DNA from: Rhodococcus yunnanensis NBRC 103083
GTDB lineage: Bacteria > Actinomycetota > Actinomycetes > Mycobacteriales > Mycobacteriaceae
Length of the DNA: 64,000 nucleotides
Direction: 5' to 3'
Assembly (NCBI RefSeq): GCF_001895005.1
Contig: NZ_BCXH01000003.1
Coordinates: forward strand, 62,001-126,000
The stretch's first letter is position 1, and every line of letters begins with the position of its first letter. A program made the translations under genes and the position numbers. The notes under the pieces were generated by a model. That model searched no databases and was not told where the DNA came from. It saw only the letters and a list, made by a program, of their open reading frames with translations. Of this stretch, positions 3,373 through 50,135 are shown piece after piece.

Positions 3373-4241
3373 GTGCTCTCCCAGTCGTGAAATCCCTTGC
3401 CTGACTTGCGTCCCAACTCGCCCCGAGCGACCTTGTCGCGCAACAACTGCGGCGGGGTGAAACGATCACCCAGAGTCGACGCGAGATGTTCGGCGATGGC
3501 CAATCGGACATCGAGGCCGACGAGATCGGTCGATCGCAGCGGACCCATCGGGTGCTTGTAGCCGAGTTCCATTGCTCGGTCGATGGATTCGGCGTCGGCG
3601 ACGCCTTCCTCCAGCATCCGGATGGCCTCCAGGCCGAGCATGACGCCGAGACGGCTGGTTGCGAAGCCGGGGGAGTCGTTGACGAGCACCTCGGTCTTGC
3701 CCAGTAGACGGACCCAGTTCCGGACCTGCGAGGTGACGGCAGGCGAGGTGGCGGGAGCGCGCACGATCTCCACGAGAGTCGACGCAGGCACCGGGTTGAA
3801 GAAGTGCATGCCGATGAAGCGCGACGGATCGCTCAGCGCCGCACCGAGTTCGGCGATCGAGATGGAGCTGGTGTTGGACGCGATCACCGTCGACGCGGAC
3901 ACCGCTGTGTCGATCAGCGCCAGCACCTCGATCTTCAGCGACGGTATCTCCGGCACCGCTTCTACGACGAGATCGAGCCCGGCCGGCAGATCGGCGGGCC
4001 CCGCGACGGTGGACACGCGGGCGAGGATCTCAGCCGGTGGTGCAGTCAGCTTGCCGCGTTCGTGTGCTCGATCGAGGCCCGTCGACACGCGAGCGAGGGC
4101 TGCTTCCTGGTCTGCGGCTTCGGCAATGACGACGGACGAGCCGAGGGCTGCGAACACCTGCGCGATGCCTGCGCCCATTCGGCCGCCGCCGACGACGCCG
4201 ACCGTGGACGGAATGCCAATCGTTTCTCGTAGAAATGTCAC
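3369..4241 (-). CDS. paaH: 3-hydroxyacyl-CoA dehydrogenase, probable PaaH
   Basis: 290 residues from the GTG at 4241, chosen because GGAG precedes it and it overlaps the upstream hydratase stop as GTGA. NAD-dependent oxidation of 3-hydroxyadipyl-CoA to 3-oxoadipyl-CoA in phenylacetate breakdown. N-terminal Rossmann fold GVVGGGRMGAGIAQ (residues 13-26), catalytic segment IGMHFFNPVP with the active-site histidine, then the all-helical C-terminal dimerisation domain beginning NDSPGFATSRLG and ending GRKSGKGFHDW. Single-function length, not a FadB fusion. Lies between paaF and paaG. Confidence 0.87.
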   Translation of the reverse strand: MTFLRETIGIPSTVGVVGGGRMGAGIAQVFAALGSSVVIAEAADQEAALARVSTGLDRAHERGKLTAPPAEILARVSTVAGPADLPAGLDLVVEAVPEIPSLKIEVLALIDTAVSASTVIASNTSSISIAELGAALSDPSRFIGMHFFNPVPASTLVEIVRAPATSPAVTSQVRNWVRLLGKTEVLVNDSPGFATSRLGVMLGLEAIRMLEEGVADAESIDRAMELGYKHPMGPLRSTDLVGLDVRLAIAEHLASTLGDRFTPPQLLRDKVARGELGRKSGKGFHDWEST

Positions 4242-4957
4242 AGTTTCTCCAGAAATGCCGTCATGCGGCGTTGTTTGTCCTCGGTCTCGAAGAGGACGGC
4301 TTGGGCGATGTCGTCGGCCCACGGGTGCGAGCCCGGTGCGTCGAGGATCTTCTTGGTCAGCTTCAACGCGAGGGGTGCCTGGCGGGCGATGCGGTCGGCG
4401 AGAGCGTGCGCCGAGGCCAGGGGATCATCGACGACCTCCATGACGAGTCCGGTGCGCAGCGCGGTCTCCGCGTCGAGCGTGCGGCCGCCGAGAAGAACCT
4501 GCTTGGCGACGGACACCCCGACCAACTCCGGCAGCCGGTAGCTCGCGCCCGCAGCGGCCATGATTCCGAGCCCGGGCTCGGGGTTACCGAACACGGCAGT
4601 CGACGAGCCGATTCGGATATCGCACGCGTACGACAGCTCGGCACCTCCGCCGAGCGCGTATCCCTTGATGGCGGCGATGGTCGGCAACGGCAGAGCCGCG
4701 ATGCGGTCGAAGAGGTTGCGGTTGATGCCGCGCAGTGCGTCGTCACGGGTTCGCACGCGGAGCTGGTTGATGTCGGCGCCGCCGGCGAAATGCTCGCCCT
4801 TGCCGGTGAGTATCAGCAACCGAGGATCCGCTTCGACGATCCCGCACACCTGGTGCAGTTCGGCGATCATCTCCGCGTCGATGGCGTTGCGTTGCGCCTC
4901 CCGATCGAGGGTGACGACCACACGGCCGGAGAGTTCCTCTACGGCGATGGTCTTCAC
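4238..4957 (-). CDS. paaF: Enoyl-CoA hydratase, probable PaaF (2,3-dehydroadipyl-CoA hydratase)
   Basis: 239 residues from the GTG at 4957. Crotonase-family hydratase that adds water to 2,3-dehydroadipyl-CoA. Oxyanion-hole segments GEHFAGGADINQL and IKGYALGGGAELSYACDI are intact, and EPGLGIMAAAGASYRLPELVG carries the expected hydratase pattern, although the usual second catalytic glutamate is not obvious in GASYR, which leaves some doubt about the exact reaction. The start overlaps the stop of a 29-codon thiolase remnant by four bases (GTGA), so paaF is probably translated by coupling to it. Confidence 0.83.
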   Translation of the reverse strand: MKTIAVEELSGRVVVTLDREAQRNAIDAEMIAELHQVCGIVEADPRLLILTGKGEHFAGGADINQLRVRTRDDALRGINRNLFDRIAALPLPTIAAIKGYALGGGAELSYACDIRIGSSTAVFGNPEPGLGIMAAAGASYRLPELVGVSVAKQVLLGGRTLDAETALRTGLVMEVVDDPLASAHALADRIARQAPLALKLTKKILDAPGSHPWADDIAQAVLFETEDKQRRMTAFLEKL

Positions 4958-5043
4958 AGTGCCTCGATCGACATCGACACGCCCTGCCCGACGCCCACGC
5001 ACAGCGTCGCCAGTCCGCGTGACACCAGAAGAAATTCGCCCAC
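4954..5043 (-). pseudogene. C-terminal remnant of a thiolase (PaaJ/PcaF type) acting as a short upstream ORF of paaF
   Basis: 29 codons beginning GTG at 5043, six bases after AGGAG, and ending TGA within the paaF GTG start. The peptide contains SRGLATLCVGVGQGVSM, the C-terminal catalytic block of thiolases including the second active-site cysteine; the other roughly 370 residues are absent, and the sequence upstream is promoter and operator. The likely history is an internal deletion of a paaJ-like gene that kept its ribosome site and the coupling to paaF. No intact thiolase gene lies in this window. Confidence 0.78.
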
Positions 5044-5074
5044 TGTTTGCTCCTTCGCCGGGTAACCCCTTTCA

Positions 5075-5104
5075 TTAATAACCGAACATTCGGTCGTTGC
5101 GCAA
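5075..5104 (-). promoter_or_regulatory. paaF-operon promoter with PaaR-type operator in its spacer
   Basis: On the minus strand a -35-like TTGCGC (5104-5099) and a -10-like TATTAA (5080-5075) are 18 bases apart, and the palindrome ACCGAATGTTCGGT (5094-5081) fills most of the spacer. A repressor bound here would directly block RNA polymerase. The site also lies 64 bp upstream of the divergent paaR start, so it could serve autoregulation. Confidence 0.75.
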
Positions 5105-5157: not shown

Positions 5158-5766
5158 ATGACAACCGCACGTGCCCCACGCAGAACCGGTCTGCCTGGAC
5201 GGCCGGGATACGACCTCGACTCGTTGCTTGCCGTTGCCGTGAAGGTGTTCAACGACAAGGGTTACGACGGCACGTCGATGGAGGTGCTGGCCAAGCGTCT
5301 CGGCATCACGAAGTCCTCGATCTATCACCATGTGGCAGGTAAGTCCGAACTGCTGGAGCTGGCGCTCGCGCGCGCACTCAACGCGCTGTTCGCGGTCACC
5401 ACCGAGGAGAAGACCACCGAGGGTCGGTACATCGATCGGCTCGAATATCTGGTCCGTCGCAGCGTGGAGATCCTCGTCGCCGAGCTGCCCTACGTCACGC
5501 TGTTGCTGCGGGTGCGCGGTAACACCGACGTCGAGCGGCGAGCGCTGACCCGGCGCCGAGAGTTCGACGCGTTCGTCTCCGATCTGGTCGTCGCCGCTGC
5601 CGACGAGGGCGATCTGCGCGCCGACATCGATCCGGCGCTGGTCTCGAGGTTGCTGTTCGGCACCGTCAACTCGCTGATCGAGTGGTACCGGCCCCGAACC
5701 GGTGGTTCGGCTGTCGACCTCGCCGACGCCGTGGTGGCGCTGACCTTCGACGGTCTGCGGCGGTAG
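5158..5766 (+). CDS. paaR: TetR-family regulator, probable PaaR repressor of phenylacetate genes
   Basis: 202 residues from the ATG at 5158 preceded by GGGAAGATG; a longer in-frame version would run back through the operator. TetR N-terminal helix-turn-helix around residues 22-66 (NDKGYDGTSMEVLAKRLGI, then SSIYHHVAGKSELLE), followed by a ligand-binding domain ending WYRPRTGG. Divergent from paaF and followed by paaZ. Three matching palindromes lie at paa promoters. In related actinobacteria PaaR is a TetR repressor released by phenylacetyl-CoA; that ligand is inferred here. Confidence 0.85.
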   Translation: MTTARAPRRTGLPGRPGYDLDSLLAVAVKVFNDKGYDGTSMEVLAKRLGITKSSIYHHVAGKSELLELALARALNALFAVTTEEKTTEGRYIDRLEYLVRRSVEILVAELPYVTLLLRVRGNTDVERRALTRRREFDAFVSDLVVAAADEGDLRADIDPALVSRLLFGTVNSLIEWYRPRTGGSAVDLADAVVALTFDGLRR

Positions 5767-5777
5767 AACCGACTTCC

Positions 5778-5828
5778 TTGACATCCCGAGGCAACCGCGC
5801 GATGGTAATTACCGACCGAACGTACGGT
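5778..5828 (+). promoter_or_regulatory. paaZ promoter region with PaaR-type operator
   Basis: A perfect TTGACA (5778-5783) lies upstream of ACCGAACGTACGGT (5815-5828), which matches ACCG-NN-CG-NN-CGGT. The sequence GGTAAT (5804-5809) may be the -10, but the 20-base spacing is long, so the promoter assignment is weaker than the operator. The ribosome site GGAG and the paaZ GTG start follow within 15 bases. Confidence 0.65.
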
Positions 5829-8196: not shown

Positions 8197-8566
8197 GATG
8201 TTCGAACGGGATGTGGCATCGAAGAATCTCGGGATCGAATTGATCGAGTTGGCCGAGGGATACGCCAAGATGTCGATGACGATCACCGACAGCATGGTCA
8301 ACGGCCATGCGATCACGCACGGCGGTTACGTCTTCCTTCTCGCGGACACTGCCTTCGCCATGGCGTGCAACAGCGGTGCCGACGCGACCGTCGCTGCGCG
8401 CTGCGACATCAGGTTCCTGCGTCCGACCAAGGCAGGCGATGTACTCGTCGCCGAAGCAGTCGAGCGAGCTCGATTCGGCAGGAATGGGATCTACGACGTC
8501 TCGGTCGGCTGCGACGGCGCCGCGGTCGCCGAATTCCGCGGAGACAGTCGAACCATCGGTCGATAG
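8183..8566 (+). CDS. paaI: PaaI, hotdog-fold acyl-CoA thioesterase
   Basis: 127 residues from TTG at 8183, preferred because GGGGG precedes it and the family-like residues AREMFERDVASKNLGI would be lost with the ATG at 8198. Hydrolyses ring-hydroxylated phenylacetyl-CoA thioesters, freeing CoA from dead-end metabolites of the paa pathway. The hotdog motif NGHAITHGGYVFLLADTAFA contains the PaaI HGG-x-D active-site pattern, and the C-terminal half RFLRPTKAGDVLVAEA is typical. Converges on the lpd gene with only nine bases between stops. Confidence 0.92.
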   Translation: MIAREMFERDVASKNLGIELIELAEGYAKMSMTITDSMVNGHAITHGGYVFLLADTAFAMACNSGADATVAARCDIRFLRPTKAGDVLVAEAVERARFGRNGIYDVSVGCDGAAVAEFRGDSRTIGR

Positions 8567-8575
8567 CAGGACCAG

Positions 8576-9943
8576 TCACGAATGGCGATGCAGTGGACTC
8601 CCGGACAGCGCCATCATCGCCTCACCGAGAGCTTCGTTCTGGGTGGGGTGAGCGTGCACGAAGGCGCCGATCTCCGACGGTAACGCCTCCCACGCCACCG
8701 CGAGTTGCGCTTCACCTATCAGCTCACCGGCTCGATCGCCGACGATGTGAACTCCGACTATCGGGCCGTCGGTACCGGCCCTGATGACCTTGACACCCCC
8801 TGCAGTGCCGAGGATTCGGCTCTTTCCGTTCCCTCCCAGGTCGTAGACCAGCGACGTGACGGTTCCGTGTTTCTCCTCGGCGGCGTGCTCGGTGAGGCCG
8901 ACCGACGCAACCTCGGGGTGCGAATAGGTGACTCGGGGGATCGCGGCCCCGTCGATTCTGATCGGTTGCCGCCCGGCGATGAGCTCGGCGACGAAGATGC
9001 CGTGCTGAAAACCTCTGTGTGCCAGCTGATATCCAGCGACGATGTCGCCGACTGCGTATACGCCGGGAACGGTGGTGGTCAGGTTGTCGTCGACTGCCAC
9101 GAAGCCGCGGTCGGTCGCGACGCCGATCTCGCTCAATCCGAGACCCTCGGTACGAGGACCTCGGCCGGCGGCCACGAGCACGACGTCGGCGACGAGGGTG
9201 TCGCCGTTGGACAACGAGACGGTGACATCGGAATCCGACGGAGCGACCGCCTCCACCGTGGTACCGACCCGAATATCGATTCCACGCTTCTTCAGCGCGC
9301 GAGTGAGCTGCTTCGACGCCCATTCGTCCTCGCCGGGCACGATGCGATCGAGCGCTTCGACGACGGTGACCTTCGACCCGAACGAGGTCCAGATGCTGGC
9401 GAATTCGATTCCGATGACGCCACCACCGAGTACCACCACGGATTCGGGAACACGATCGAGCGTGAGGGCGGTATCGCTGGTGATCACACGATCGGCGATC
9501 TCGATGCCAGGGATAGTGCGCGAGTACGAGCCTGTCGCGAGCACGAGCGATCGTCCGGTGAGTGCTCGGCCGTCGACCTCCACCGTCTTCGGGCCCACGA
9601 GATGGCCTCGTCCGTGGACGATCTCGATCCCTGGCTGCTTCAGCAGACCCTGCAAGCCTGCGTAGAGCACGTCCACGACGCGTTGCTTGTAGGCCAGCGC
9701 CGCCGGGATGTCGACGCCGGAGAACGTTGCACCGACCCCGACGGCACCCGCGCCACGCACGGCGTCGGCGATCTCGGCGGTGTGCAGCAGAGCCTTCGTC
9801 GGAATGCAGCCGCGATGAAGGCATGTGCCGCCGAGTTTGTCCTCCTCGACGATCACCACCGACAGCCCCAGTTGCGCGGCCCTGATGGCGCAGGAGTACC
9901 CACCGGACCCGCCGCCCAGGATCACGACGTCGACCTCGCTCAT
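8576..9943 (-). CDS. lpdA: Dihydrolipoyl dehydrogenase, E3 of the 2-oxoacid dehydrogenase complex
   Basis: 455 residues from the ATG at 9943. FAD flavoprotein that reoxidises the dihydrolipoyl group on E2 with NAD. FAD site VVILGGGSGGYSCAIRAAQL at the N terminus, redox disulfide C41-C46 in GGTCLHRGCIPTK, NAD site VVVLGGGVIGIEFASIW, second FAD contact GVYAVGDIV, and the catalytic His-Glu pair in HAHPTQNEALGE. Last gene of the E1a-E1b-E2-E3 operon; its ATG overlaps the E2 stop. Confidence 0.93.
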   Translation of the reverse strand: MSEVDVVILGGGSGGYSCAIRAAQLGLSVVIVEEDKLGGTCLHRGCIPTKALLHTAEIADAVRGAGAVGVGATFSGVDIPAALAYKQRVVDVLYAGLQGLLKQPGIEIVHGRGHLVGPKTVEVDGRALTGRSLVLATGSYSRTIPGIEIADRVITSDTALTLDRVPESVVVLGGGVIGIEFASIWTSFGSKVTVVEALDRIVPGEDEWASKQLTRALKKRGIDIRVGTTVEAVAPSDSDVTVSLSNGDTLVADVVLVAAGRGPRTEGLGLSEIGVATDRGFVAVDDNLTTTVPGVYAVGDIVAGYQLAHRGFQHGIFVAELIAGRQPIRIDGAAIPRVTYSHPEVASVGLTEHAAEEKHGTVTSLVYDLGGNGKSRILGTAGGVKVIRAGTDGPIVGVHIVGDRAGELIGEAQLAVAWEALPSEIGAFVHAHPTQNEALGEAMMALSGSPLHRHS

Positions 9944-11280
9944 CGATTGCCGCCCAGAGCGAGTACCGGGTTCTCGACGTAATCGGCTACGGTGCGCAGG
10001 AATCCGCCCGCGACACCGCCGTCGCACACGCGGTGGTCGAACGTAAGAGACAGCGAAGTGACCTTGCGGACCGCGAGTGCACCGCCGACGACCCATGGCC
10101 TGTCGATGATGCGGCCGATGCCGAGGATCGCCGCCTCGGGGTGGTTGATGATCGCTGCAGACCCGTCGACTCCGAAGACTCCGTAGTTGTTGAGCGTGAA
10201 CGTTCCGCCGGTCAGCCGGGCAGGCGGCAGCGAACCGGCCCGGGCCAGTTCGGTGGTTTCGAGCAGTCGTTCCGAGAGCTCACGTAGATCTGCCTTGTTC
10301 GCCTGGGCGAGAACAGGAACCATCAGCCCGCGATCGGTCTGCGCCGCGATGCCGAGGTGAACGTCGGTGTAGCGCAGGATCTCGCCCGCTTCCGTGTCGA
10401 CCGTGCTGTTGAGTTCGGGGAACTTCGCCAGCGCCGTCATGGTGAGGCTTGCCAGTACCGCCAGCAGCGAGACTGTCACCCCGTCGAGCGATGCGTCCAG
10501 GTCGCGACGCGCCTGCAGCAGTGCCGTCGCGTCGACGTCGACCCACGTCGTCGCCTCCGGGATCTCGGATCGGCTTCGAGACATCCTGTCGCCGATGAGC
10601 TGTCGAATTCCCGTGATCGGGATTCGGGTGACTCCCACTCGTGAGGGCGCCGGCGCGGACAGTGCGCGCTCGACGTCCGCGCGGGTGACGACACCATCGA
10701 TGCCCTCGGTGGCGATGTCGTCGAGGTCGAGCCCGCCGTCCAGCGCGAGCCTGCGCACGATGGGAGACAACACCTTCGGTTGAGAGTTCTTCGACGGCGT
10801 CGATGCAACGGCAGGTGATTCGGGCACTGCAGCCCGACGACGCCTGCGCGTGGCAGGCCCGTGTCCGGTCCCGTAACCGATCAGCACATTTCCCGAACCG
10901 GCCTGATCGTCCTGGTCACTCCGCAGGCTCCGCTCCCGCTCTCCCTGGTCACTCCGCAGGCTCCGCTCCCGCTCTCCCTGGTCACTCCGCAGGCTCCGCT
11001 CCCGCTCTCCCTGTCGGTACTGCTCGTGGGCGGGGTCACTTCCGCCGTCGATGGTGATCAACGGCGTCCCGACGGCCATGGTCGTGCCCGCAGCGCCGTG
11101 CAGCTCGGCGACGACGCCTGCGAACGGACACGGCACCTCGACGGATGCTTTTGCGGTTTCCACCTCGACGACGACCTGGTCGATCGTCACGGTGTCTCCC
11201 GGTTTCACCTTCCACTCGACGATGTCGGCCTCGGTGAGTCCCTCGCCGAGGTCGGGAAGCATGAATACCTGCGCGCTCAT
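9940..11280 (-). CDS. bkdC: Dihydrolipoamide acyltransferase, E2 of a branched-chain 2-oxoacid dehydrogenase
   Basis: 446 residues. One lipoyl domain with lipoate acceptor K44 in VETAKASVEVP, a linker, a peripheral-subunit-binding domain around residues 165-205 (PIVRRLALDGGLDLDDI), and the catalytic acyltransferase domain ending in FDHRVCDGGVAGGFL with the active-site histidine and aspartate. The linker is unusual: residues 91-123 are three exact 11-residue repeats GERERSLRSDQ, highly charged and encoded by a 33-bp tandem repeat. Overlaps E1b upstream and E3 downstream by ATGA. Substrate class is inferred from the operon and the Lrp neighbour. Confidence 0.9.
   Translation of the reverse strand: MSAQVFMLPDLGEGLTEADIVEWKVKPGDTVTIDQVVVEVETAKASVEVPCPFAGVVAELHGAAGTTMAVGTPLITIDGGSDPAHEQYRQGERERSLRSDQGERERSLRSDQGERERSLRSDQDDQAGSGNVLIGYGTGHGPATRRRRRAAVPESPAVASTPSKNSQPKVLSPIVRRLALDGGLDLDDIATEGIDGVVTRADVERALSAPAPSRVGVTRIPITGIRQLIGDRMSRSRSEIPEATTWVDVDATALLQARRDLDASLDGVTVSLLAVLASLTMTALAKFPELNSTVDTEAGEILRYTDVHLGIAAQTDRGLMVPVLAQANKADLRELSERLLETTELARAGSLPPARLTGGTFTLNNYGVFGVDGSAAIINHPEAAILGIGRIIDRPWVVGGALAVRKVTSLSLTFDHRVCDGGVAGGFLRTVADYVENPVLALGGNR
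10911..11009 (-). repeat. 33-bp tandem repeat, three copies, in the E2 linker
   Basis: Three copies of a 33-bp unit start at 10911, 10944 and 10977 with essentially no differences. The period is a multiple of three, so each adds GERERSLRSDQ to E2 without breaking the frame. High identity suggests recent expansion or active homogenisation. Confidence 0.93.
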
Positions 11281-23457: not shown

Positions 23458-25119
23458 ATGTTCGTCAACTCCTCCACCACGTTCGTCGCCGACGCACTTC
23501 GCGGTCTCGTTGCCTCCACCGGTGACATTGCGTGGCATGCGGATCCAGGATTCCTGACGCGTCGCGACCCGCTGTCTCCTGGTCGTGTGGCAGTGCTGTC
23601 CGGTGGTGGATCGGGCCACGAACCGATGCACGCCGGTTTCATCGGGAAAGGCATGTTGGCCGCGGTCTGCCCGGGCCTGGTGTTCACCTCGCCCAACGCA
23701 CTCCAGGTTCACGAAGCCTCCAAGGCAATCGGTGTGGGCGGGGGAGTGCTGCACATCGTCAAGAACTACACGGGCGACGTCATGAACTTCGGAATCGCCC
23801 GAGAACTGTTGCGAGAAGACGGCATCGAATCCGACTGCGTAGTCGTCGACGACGACGTGGCCACCGAGCGCGCCGATGGCGACGGCCCGGGCAGGCGCGG
23901 GACCGCGGCGACCGTCGTCGTGGAAAAGATCTGTGGCGCAGCCGCAGAACGCGGCGACTCACTTGCGGACGTTGCAACTCTCGGCAGGCGGGTCGCAGCG
24001 AACTCGCGAAGCATGGCTGTGGCACTACATCCCTGCACGCTCCCGGGATCCGACGAGCCGTCGTTCGACCTTCCGGAAGGTGAGATCGAACTCGGGATCG
24101 GTATACACGGCGAGCGCGGAACCTCGCGAGTACCCACGATGGCAGCCCAGGAGATCGTCGCGGCGTTGGCAGGGCCGGTGGTGGATTCGCTCGCGCTCGA
24201 ACGCGGAGAGTCGGTCATCGCATTCGTCAACGGACTCGGTGCTACGCATCCGATGGAGCTACAGCTGCTGTACGGCGAGCTCGCGGAGTTCTTGTCCGAC
24301 AAGGGTATCGAGATCGCTCGACCTCTCGTCGGATCGTTGGTGACGGCGCTGAACATGGGTGGCGCCTCCGTCACACTGGTTCGTGTCGACCGCGAGGTGC
24401 TGGAGCTGTGGGATGCGCCGACGGATGCACCGGCCTGGCCCAACACGCCGGCGACGAGTGCCGGGTATCTCGGCGCGCGACAAGGATTCGGCCCGGCCTA
24501 TACCCCGAGCGGACTCGACGACGACAGAAGCGAATTCGTGTCCGCATGGGTCGGAAATTGGGTGCAGCGGGTGCTGGACGAGGAGTCGTCGCTCACCGAT
24601 CTGGATCGGCGCGCAGGCGACGGCGATTTCGGAACCAACATGGCAGCCGCTCTGCATCAACTCGACCTCGGCAGTGTTCGCGAGAGATACTCGGCGACAA
24701 CCATCTTCGAGGCCGTCTCCGAGGCCTATCTGGGTCACGCGGGCGGGACGTCCGGGGCTCTGTTCGGGATCTGGTTCCGGCAGTTCTACCGCAACCTCGG
24801 TACCGTCGACCTGGCGTCGATCACCGCGGCCGCGCGCAGCGGACTCGACACCATCACCGAACTCGGCGGAGCACGGACCGGAGACAAGACCATGGTCGAC
24901 GCCATCGCCCCTGCCGTCGAGGCACTCGAAGCCGCGTCCGACCTGGCCGCCGGACTGCGCGCAGCAGCGCAGGCTGCACAGACCGGAGCCGAGTCGACGC
25001 AGGAACTGACTGCGAACCGAGGCCGAGCCTCCTATATCGGCGACGCAGCGCGAGGCGTCGTCGACCCGGGTGCGTTGGTGATCGCCTGGTTCTTCCAGGC
25101 GGCGTCAGACGCTCGGTGA
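23458..25119 (+). CDS. dhaK: Dihydroxyacetone kinase, fused DhaK-DhaL (ATP-dependent)
   Basis: 553 residues. The N-terminal DhaK domain (about 1-325) has LSGGGSGHEPMHAGFIG and the substrate-binding histidine in IGIHGERG. After a short linker the DhaL ATP-binding domain (about 355-553) has LDRRAGDGDFGTN, AGGTSGALFG, GARTGDKTMVDA and NRGRASYIGD, giving the Asp-bound Mg/ATP site. The fusion marks an ATP-dependent kinase rather than a PTS type. Phosphorylates dihydroxyacetone to DHAP. The stop codon lies in the first unit of a 27-bp tandem array. Confidence 0.94.
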   Translation: MFVNSSTTFVADALRGLVASTGDIAWHADPGFLTRRDPLSPGRVAVLSGGGSGHEPMHAGFIGKGMLAAVCPGLVFTSPNALQVHEASKAIGVGGGVLHIVKNYTGDVMNFGIARELLREDGIESDCVVVDDDVATERADGDGPGRRGTAATVVVEKICGAAAERGDSLADVATLGRRVAANSRSMAVALHPCTLPGSDEPSFDLPEGEIELGIGIHGERGTSRVPTMAAQEIVAALAGPVVDSLALERGESVIAFVNGLGATHPMELQLLYGELAEFLSDKGIEIARPLVGSLVTALNMGGASVTLVRVDREVLELWDAPTDAPAWPNTPATSAGYLGARQGFGPAYTPSGLDDDRSEFVSAWVGNWVQRVLDEESSLTDLDRRAGDGDFGTNMAAALHQLDLGSVRERYSATTIFEAVSEAYLGHAGGTSGALFGIWFRQFYRNLGTVDLASITAAARSGLDTITELGGARTGDKTMVDAIAPAVEALEAASDLAAGLRAAAQAAQTGAESTQELTANRGRASYIGDAARGVVDPGALVIAWFFQAASDAR

Positions 25120-25202
25120 ACCCAGGCGGCGTCAGACGCTCGGAGAACCCAGGCGGCGTCAGACGCTCGGAGAACCCAGGCGGCGTCAGACGCTCGGAGA
25201 AC
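25095..25202. repeat. 27-bp tandem array (4 copies) between convergent dhaK and fRMsr genes
   Basis: Four units at 25095, 25122, 25149 and 25176. Each contains GCGTCAGACGC, a 5-1-5 inverted repeat, so each can form a small hairpin. Unit 1 holds the dhaK stop (GGTGAACC, TGA at 25117); units 2-4 have GGAGAACC instead. Unit 4 holds the stop of the convergent gene. The array is therefore a duplicated shared gene end. Confidence 0.95.
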
Positions 25203-25674
25203 CCAGGAAGACACGCGCAACGGCTTCGAGACCGGCCTGGTCGTCGGCGTCGAACCTGCTGGGGACCGGGCTGTCGAGATCGAAGACGCCGATGAGGGTG
25301 TCGCCGTCGTACAGGGGCACCACCACCTCCGAACGCGTCGCCGCATCGCAGGCGATGTGCCCCGGGAACTCGTGGACGTCGGCGACACGCTGGGTCTCGC
25401 GTGTTGTCGCGGCGGCTCCGCACACCCCCTTGTCCAACGCGATGCGGACGCAGGCCGGCTGTCCCTGGAACGGCCCGACGACCAACTCGGTGCCGTCGAA
25501 CAGGTAGAAACCGACCCAATTGACCTCGGGCAGCGCGTGGTATACCAGCGCCGAGATATTCGCGGCGTTCGCGATGCGATCCGATTCGCCGTCGACGAGC
25601 GCTCTGGCCTGCTGGACCAGCTGCTCGTATTGCTCTGTCTTGGATCCGTCGAGTGCGGTAGCGGTGAACGACAT
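25186..25674 (-). CDS. msrC: GAF-domain free methionine-(R)-sulfoxide reductase
   Basis: 162 residues from the ATG at 25674; an upstream ATG extends the frame into the next gene. Single GAF domain of the fRMsr family: VNWVGFYLFDGTELVVGPFQ, then C75, C85 and C109 in QPACVRIALDKGVCGAAA and HIACDAATRSEVVVPL, matching the three redox cysteines of fRMsr. Reduces free Met-(R)-SO in the cytoplasm. The last residues LGSPSV are encoded by the 27-bp array. Convergent with dhaK. Confidence 0.92.
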   Translation of the reverse strand: MSFTATALDGSKTEQYEQLVQQARALVDGESDRIANAANISALVYHALPEVNWVGFYLFDGTELVVGPFQGQPACVRIALDKGVCGAAATTRETQRVADVHEFPGHIACDAATRSEVVVPLYDGDTLIGVFDLDSPVPSRFDADDQAGLEAVARVFLGSPSV

Positions 25675-26650: not shown

Positions 26651-27050
26651 GTGACCGAATGTCACCCTCGCTCACTCCGGGGTGACCGAATGTGACATTC
26701 GCTCACCCCGGGGTGACCGAATGTCGCCCTCGCTCACTGCAGGGTGACTGAATGTCGCCCTCGCTCACTGCAGGGTGACTGAATGTCGCCCTCGCGCACT
26801 GCAGGGTGACTGAATGTCGCCCTCGCTCACTGCAGGGTGACTGAATGTCACCCTCGCGCACTCCGGGGTGACCGAATGTCGCCCTCGCTCACTCTGAGTG
26901 ACTGAATGTCGCCCTCGCTCACGCCAGGGTGACCGGATGTGACATTCGCTCGCGCCGGGTGGACGAAGGAGGCCCTCGCTCACTCTGAGTGACCGGATGT
27001 GACATTCGCTCACGCCAAGGTGACCAAATGTGACATTCGCTCACCCCAGG
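26651..27050. repeat. 31-bp tandem array, 13 units, growing from the vsr 3' end
   Basis: Units of 30-31 bp begin GTGAC(C/T)GAATGT at 26651, 26682, 26713, 26744, 26775, 26806, 26837, 26868, 26898, 26929, 26959, 26989 and 27020. The middle varies between GTCGCCC, GTCACCC and GTGACATTC; some units contain the palindrome GAATGTGACATTC. Unit 11 is degenerate. The last unit overlaps the final codons and the TGA of vsr. The period has no unique spacer, so it is not CRISPR. It fills the 457-bp gap between DUF998 and vsr. Confidence 0.95.
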
Positions 27051-49443: not shown

Positions 49444-50135
49444 GTGCTCGCCTGGTTCGCCGGCCCGGCATCGCGGCCGACCTCGCGGCCGAACAGCCTG
49501 CCGACGAACTGCGAGACAGCGGCGTCGGCCTGCATTCCCTGGCTGCGGACACCCCGGACCGCCTCCGCGGACAGCGATCCCGTCGACTCGCGGATGATGT
49601 CCGGTAGGTCGACGCCGTCGATGACGAAATTGGCCAGCGCGATCAAGTCGACTCGTGCAATTGCACCGTCGAGGTCGACTCGCGCGACGGCTCTGTCGAG
49701 GTCGACTCGCGCAACGGCTCTGTCGAGGTCCACGCGCGCGACCTGACGGTCGAGGTCGACGGTGTCGACGACGGCGTCGAGGTCGACGCGTCGGACTGCT
49801 GCATCCAGATCGACTCGTGCGACGGCCTTGTCGAGGTCGACTCCTTCGATGATGGAGTCGATGTCGACGTTCTCGCGGATCAGACGCGTCAGGTCGATCT
49901 CGTCGAGCGCTGCCGCCACGATCTTGACGATGGTCGCCCGCAACACGGCATCGGCCAACAGGGTGGCTGCGGCGATCGCGCGCTCGCCGCGACCGGACAC
50001 GGTCCGAACGGTGTCTCCGATCATCGGCAGCCGAGTGAGTCCGCGAACGGCACCGCGAACGACGCTGCGTGCGGCACCTGTCGCGGTCACCGCGGTTCCC
50101 ACGGCCAGCGGCACGAGATGTACTTCGTTCGACAC
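49440..50135 (-). CDS. Protein with eight nine-residue VDLDxAVAR repeats
   Basis: 231 residues. N-terminal region 1-90 is helical and basic (TGAARSVVRGAVRGLTRLPM). Residues about 99-170 are eight units of nine residues with consensus VDLD-x-A-V-A-R (KAVAR, AAVRR, AVVDT, RQVAR, RAVAR twice, GAIAR, then ALANF). The pattern predicts a regular solenoid or amphipathic surface with acidic and basic rows. No signal peptide. Widely seen next to RDD genes in actinobacteria as far as I recall; function unknown. Confidence 0.8.
   Translation of the reverse strand: MSNEVHLVPLAVGTAVTATGAARSVVRGAVRGLTRLPMIGDTVRTVSGRGERAIAAATLLADAVLRATIVKIVAAALDEIDLTRLIRENVDIDSIIEGVDLDKAVARVDLDAAVRRVDLDAVVDTVDLDRQVARVDLDRAVARVDLDRAVARVDLDGAIARVDLIALANFVIDGVDLPDIIRESTGSLSAEAVRGVRSQGMQADAAVSQFVGRLFGREVGRDAGPANQAST
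49626..49841 (-). repeat. 27-bp coding repeats, eight units
   Basis: The VDLD units are 27 bp each. Those in the middle are near-identical in DNA as well as protein (gtcgaggtcgactcgcgc), which points to slippage or gene conversion within the gene; outer units have diverged. Confidence 0.85.

Follow-up and report, generated by a model that had tools for sequence, protein, structure and literature searches.

The window, a 64,000-nt stretch of the genome of the soil actinomycete Rhodococcus yunnanensis NBRC 103083, carries a phenylacetate (paa) operon in which a 29-codon open reading frame (ORF) lies between the divergent regulator gene paaR and paaF. The features of the locus, in window coordinates, are as follows.

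4238 to 4957, minus strand: paaF, enoyl-CoA hydratase family (Pfam ECH_1, E value 6.9e-44).
4954 to 5043, minus strand: hollowed paaJ mini-ORF, 29 codons, MGEFLLVSRGLATLCVGVGQGVSMSIEAL, with a GTG start and a TGA stop (read from the sequence; residues 9 to 28 match TIGR02430).
4954 to 4957, minus strand: GTGA overlap of the mini-ORF stop and the paaF start (read from the sequence).
4954 to 5019, minus strand: thiolase C-terminal part, ∼21 codons plus stop (60 to 62 of 70 nt identical to the intact genes at loci L022, L014, and L018).
4958 to 4965, minus strand: GAGGCACT, directly before the paaF start, containing a weak Shine-Dalgarno (SD) sequence, GAGG (sequence and SD pairing).
5020 to 5043, minus strand: thiolase N-terminal part, codons 1 to 8 (16 of 21 nt identical to the start of the intact L022 gene).
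5050 to 5056, minus strand: SD sequence GAAGGAG serving the mini-ORF and taken over from paaJ (a similar site stands in the same place before the intact paaJ of relatives).
5074 to 5104, minus strand: promoter-like elements, −35 TTGCGC (5099 to 5104) and −10 TATTAAT (5074 to 5080) with an 18-nt spacer, conserved in relatives.
5081 to 5094, no strand assigned: putative PaaR-type operator, the palindrome ACCGAATGTTCGGT, within the promoter spacer and conserved.
5158 to 5766, plus strand: paaR, divergent TetR-family regulator (Pfam TetR_N, E value 1.2e-13).

The sequence agrees with the initial annotation on the extent and start codon of the short ORF, on its ribosome site and overlap with paaF, and on the promoter and PaaR-type site directly upstream, where TTGCGC, ACCGAATGTTCGGT, and TATTAAT were found. 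The ORF has the parts of a coupled upstream ORF: its own SD sequence (GAAGGAG) stands 6 nt from its GTG start codon, and its stop overlaps the downstream start. GTGA or ATGA overlaps are also present in the intact genes of the same genus and in the 31- and 12-codon forms described below, and the palindrome is conserved 5′ of paaJ, a mini-ORF, or paaF in many relatives. A second operator-like palindrome, ACCGAACGTACGGT, is located at 5815 to 5828, just 5′ of paaZ, and is probably another PaaR site.

The short ORF is the remnant of a paaJ-type 3-oxoadipyl-CoA thiolase gene after an internal in-frame deletion. Its peptide reads MGEFLLVS-RGLATLCVGVGQGVSMSIEAL, and in a profile search residues 9 to 28 matched positions 380 to 399 of the 400-position model TIGR02430 (pcaF) with an E value of 3e-4. 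The intact genes typically start with MGEVFLV[A/S]GARTP and end with SRGLATLCVGVGQGVSMLIEAP; codons 1 to approximately 7 or 8 of the mini-ORF are the thiolase's own N terminus, fused in frame to the last ∼21 codons. None of 20,000 shuffles equaled the start-side match, and nucleotide alignment placed the best junction ∼20 to 24 bases into the mini-ORF for most relatives (17 to 31 over all), with the two thiolase ends together accounting for 77 to 79 of its 90 bases. The missing middle amounts to 1,089 nt (363 codons), in frame, relative to five of the six intact genes in the comparison; relative to the sixth, L003, which is 21 nt longer, it amounts to 1,110 nt (370 codons). The initial annotation had described a thiolase reduced to its last 29 codons; the thiolase origin and the deletion stand, but both ends of the gene survive, the N-terminal ∼7 to 8 codons together with the C terminus. 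Descent from the PaaJ/PcaF family is supported by the C-terminal match, the N-terminal match to intact relatives, and the shared position. The remnant scores 19.9 bits over 20 residues against the curated TIGR02430 cutoff of 597 for full-length members, a cutoff that an intact relative also falls under (508 bits, TIGR02430 being its best match). The catalytic cysteine region, NRLCASG in relatives, is absent from the 29-residue peptide; with the catalytic body gone, the mini-ORF cannot encode an enzyme.

In the published Rhodococcus/Nocardia operon order, paaJFHGABCDEK (PMC2653477), paaF directly follows paaJ, as it does here, except that paaJ is cut to 29 codons. Among the 37 genomes of the genus that were sampled, this paaF was present in 21, and 17 of these have the thiolase upstream of it: 16 in full and one (G008) split over two contigs with both parts seen. 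The 16 full genes, of about 392 to 399 codons, lie between paaR and paaF and end in the same GTGA. Because relatives hold a full paaJ and the peptide matches thiolases, neither of the two situations that would have told against the initial annotation, namely, an unrelated peptide or relatives with the same short ORF and no thiolase version, applies. With paaJ hollowed out, paaF leads the enzyme genes of the operon.

The initial annotation had also reasoned that a thiolase elsewhere must perform the last paa step, and a candidate able in principle to do so was located. No PaaJ was found in this genome, where the other thiolases reach at most 45% identity, and one of them, at G000:C2:233734, appears to be an orthologue of PcaF. 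It adjoins two CoA-transferase genes; its R. jostii orthologue (82% identical) stands directly behind an IclR-type gene, and its orthologue in genome G006 adjoins a pcaL-like gene, so that it qualifies as an orthologue beside beta-ketoadipate genes, the neighbors being named by reading their sequences rather than by profile search. An IclR-type gene just ahead of pcaF is the expected pcaR-pcaF arrangement. The PcaF assignment rests on orthology and neighbors because the protein scores below the TIGR02430 cutoff (399.5 of 597 bits), while it exceeds that of PRK06205 (694 of 551). Orthologues are present in G006 and KRD197 (G026), both of which have also lost paaJ. On the basis of orthology, PcaF, which belongs to the beta-ketoadipate pathway, could take over the lost 3-oxoadipyl-CoA cleavage.

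A single genome shows the 29-codon form; comparable reductions occupy the same place in related paa operons. A 12-codon form, MRGV[V/I]PVT[D/G]EAP, occurs in three genomes of the same genus, G006, KRD197, and EPR-157 (loci L100, L101, and L170). A form of 21 to 24 codons, with start-side as well as C-terminal thiolase sequence, is found in R. marinonascens and G442 (L107 and L219); in R. marinonascens the GTGA has changed to GTGC and the ORF continues for a few more codons, up to the next TGA. A 31-codon form is shared by 8 genomes around Prescottella, R. zopfii, and R. tukisamuensis. Nocardia brevicatena (L128) retains a longer remnant with an internal in-frame loss of ∼95 codons, which takes in the region where intact relatives have NRLCASG. 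In every reduced form, the start of the thiolase is retained in frame with its end. The other mini-ORFs match the thiolase start at 15/24, 26/33, and 43/72 nt, in each case better than shuffles do (P of 1e-4 or less).

To place these losses, a tree of 61 operons was built from PaaF, PaaG, PaaA, and PaaZ by a quick search that left many forks open. On this tree the distribution of full and lost thiolases needs 7 to 8 changes, and the 12-, 21- to 24-, and 31-codon forms each make up one starred clade. A single origin for all mini-ORFs was rejected on their separate places in the tree and their differing junctions, although the 29- and 12-codon forms may share one. We estimate from these comparisons that paaJ was reduced separately 4 to 5 times, with 4 the safer figure because, in a more careful tree of the nearer group, a shared origin for the 29- and 12-codon forms could not be rejected (p-AU 0.093). 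The order-wide result of 8/397 is not a frequency, since few candidates were scored per genome in that search. If the frame were free, the chance that all of the 4 to 5 reductions would be in frame is (1/3)^4 to (1/3)^5, or 0.012 to 0.004.

The 31-codon form, represented by 8 genomes, indicates which parts of a remnant are kept. Its ORF measures 96 nt in 8/8, and the SD sequence and start codon are unchanged in 8/8, with 0 substitutions in these 10 nt versus 0.72 per nt in the body as counted on the tree; ten random sites of the body were equally unchanged in 0.3% of draws (P = 0.003). The absence of stop codons is weak evidence by itself, being expected by chance in GC-rich sequence with a P value of 0.33.

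The ribosome site of paaF varies with what precedes it. In the window, the predicted SD pairing energy is −8.8 kcal/mol for the mini-ORF versus −5.2 for paaF (GAGG), a difference predicted to leave paaF with weak independent initiation. In a comparison of 63 loci, the best SD sequence for paaF has a median pairing energy of −5.2 kcal/mol behind an intact thiolase, −7.0 behind mini-ORFs, and −9.0 at loci with no ORF ending on paaF (P = 3e-7, with kinship not corrected for). The erythropolis group exemplifies this alternative outcome: an AAGGAG site like that of paaJ stands immediately before the paaF GTG. In 11 of the 13 forms examined, the start of paaF was also predicted to be less accessible than that of the mini-ORF. 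Two thiolase-less Gordonia loci (L111 and L123) have a paaF without a strong SD sequence that starts a few bases past a −10-like element, and its mRNA may be leaderless there.

The explanation that we consider likely is that the hollowed cistron has been retained to load ribosomes onto paaF. A ribosome would load at the old, strong paaJ site, translate the 29 codons, stop inside the GTGA, and restart on paaF, whose own weak ribosome site lies within the former end of paaJ. Had a deletion interrupted this handover, paaF, which now leads the enzyme genes, would have been deprived of ribosomes, so that the reductions that persist would be those that are in frame or that give paaF a strong SD sequence of its own, as the comparative pattern suggests. 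Most likely, the frame is kept because ribosomes must still cross the remnant to reach paaF. The initial annotation had proposed that the leader may set paaF translation; the strongest evidence for such a role is the recurrence of in-frame hollowing in related operons, which that annotation had not seen.

That the remnant is instead neutral debris, in frame by luck and without a role, with ribosomes entering paaF at its own GAGG, seems unlikely to us. The retained tail does keep this weak site, from which paaF may initiate without coupling, and the exact 29-codon form has been seen once. Against this reading stand 4 to 5 reductions, every one of them in frame and with its start retained, an SD sequence and start codon frozen in 8 genomes beside a drifting body, and the strong paaF sites at loci where no ORF ends there. 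We give considerably less credence to a leader peptide or micropeptide whose amino acid sequence matters through ribosome stalling, sensing, or binding. A short ORF with a good ribosome site immediately behind a regulated promoter would suit such a function, but the four mini-ORF forms differ in peptide, and in the 31-codon form pN/pS is 0.89, versus 0.29 for paaF of the same genomes. The leader RNA was predicted to fold no better than its shuffles (z = 0.09); on this result and the lack of peptide conservation between forms, an RNA attenuator or attenuator-type leader peptide was rejected. An assembly or sequencing artefact, which the presence of the 29-codon form in one assembly might suggest, is hardly credible given that the locus lies inside a 416-kb contig and that comparable reductions occur in unrelated assemblies, including the single-contig G006 and G442.

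Termination-reinitiation at NTGA overlaps is known, including cases of short ORFs that merely deliver the ribosome to the next gene (PMC12548453; PMC6728339). The mini-ORF resembles these systems in its −4 spacing, the weak downstream SD sequence, and an upstream ORF with a strong one; it differs in that the ribosome would be delivered by a metabolic gene that deletion has hollowed, several times at one locus. It likewise differs from PaaJ/PcaF thiolases, to which both of its ends are homologous, in having lost the catalytic body. Mycobacterial MIRU elements, mentioned in PMC12548453 as short repeats that may take advantage of coupling, are a comparable case of sequence change tolerated within an operon as long as coupling is kept, but MIRUs are insertions, whereas here the body of a gene is lost. 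The paaJ and thiolase passages of a 2026 pathway survey (PMC13186573) do not mention a hollowed paaJ, and no description of the hollowing was found in the literature searched, most subscription journals lying outside the search. The coupling mechanism is already known; a recurrent origin of this kind, by gene hollowing, was not found described.

The reductions serve as natural replicates of the loss of a coupled gene, in which selection would have retained the SD sequence, start, frame, and stop-start overlap but neither the protein nor its peptide. They offer an origin for short upstream ORFs without a conserved peptide and suggest that, when a pathway gene is lost, an ORF needed by the operon can stay behind, which annotation may overlook or label a pseudogene. 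A broader rule, to which we assign an even chance of holding, is that, once the head gene of an operon with stop-start coupling is no longer needed, a loss would persist only if it is in frame and leaves the start and stop of that gene in place or if it passes the ribosome site of that gene to the next one, and that short ribosome-loading ORFs would arise repeatedly in this way.

Several tandem repeats were also observed in this genome. Approximately 13 copies of a 31-bp unit, GTGACCGAATGTCGCCCTCGCTCACTCCAGG, with 81% matches occupy window positions 26651 to 27050, and further arrays with 27-bp units lie at 25095 to 25207 and 49647 to 49869. Three perfect 33-bp copies at 10911 to 11013, encoding the linker repeat QGERERSLRSD, are located in a dihydrolipoyl acyltransferase-like gene on the minus strand. 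Outside the window, five in-frame 30-bp copies (NSPGA[P/S]LAPV) are present near the N terminus of a pcaG-like gene (L087, positions 8500 to 8650).
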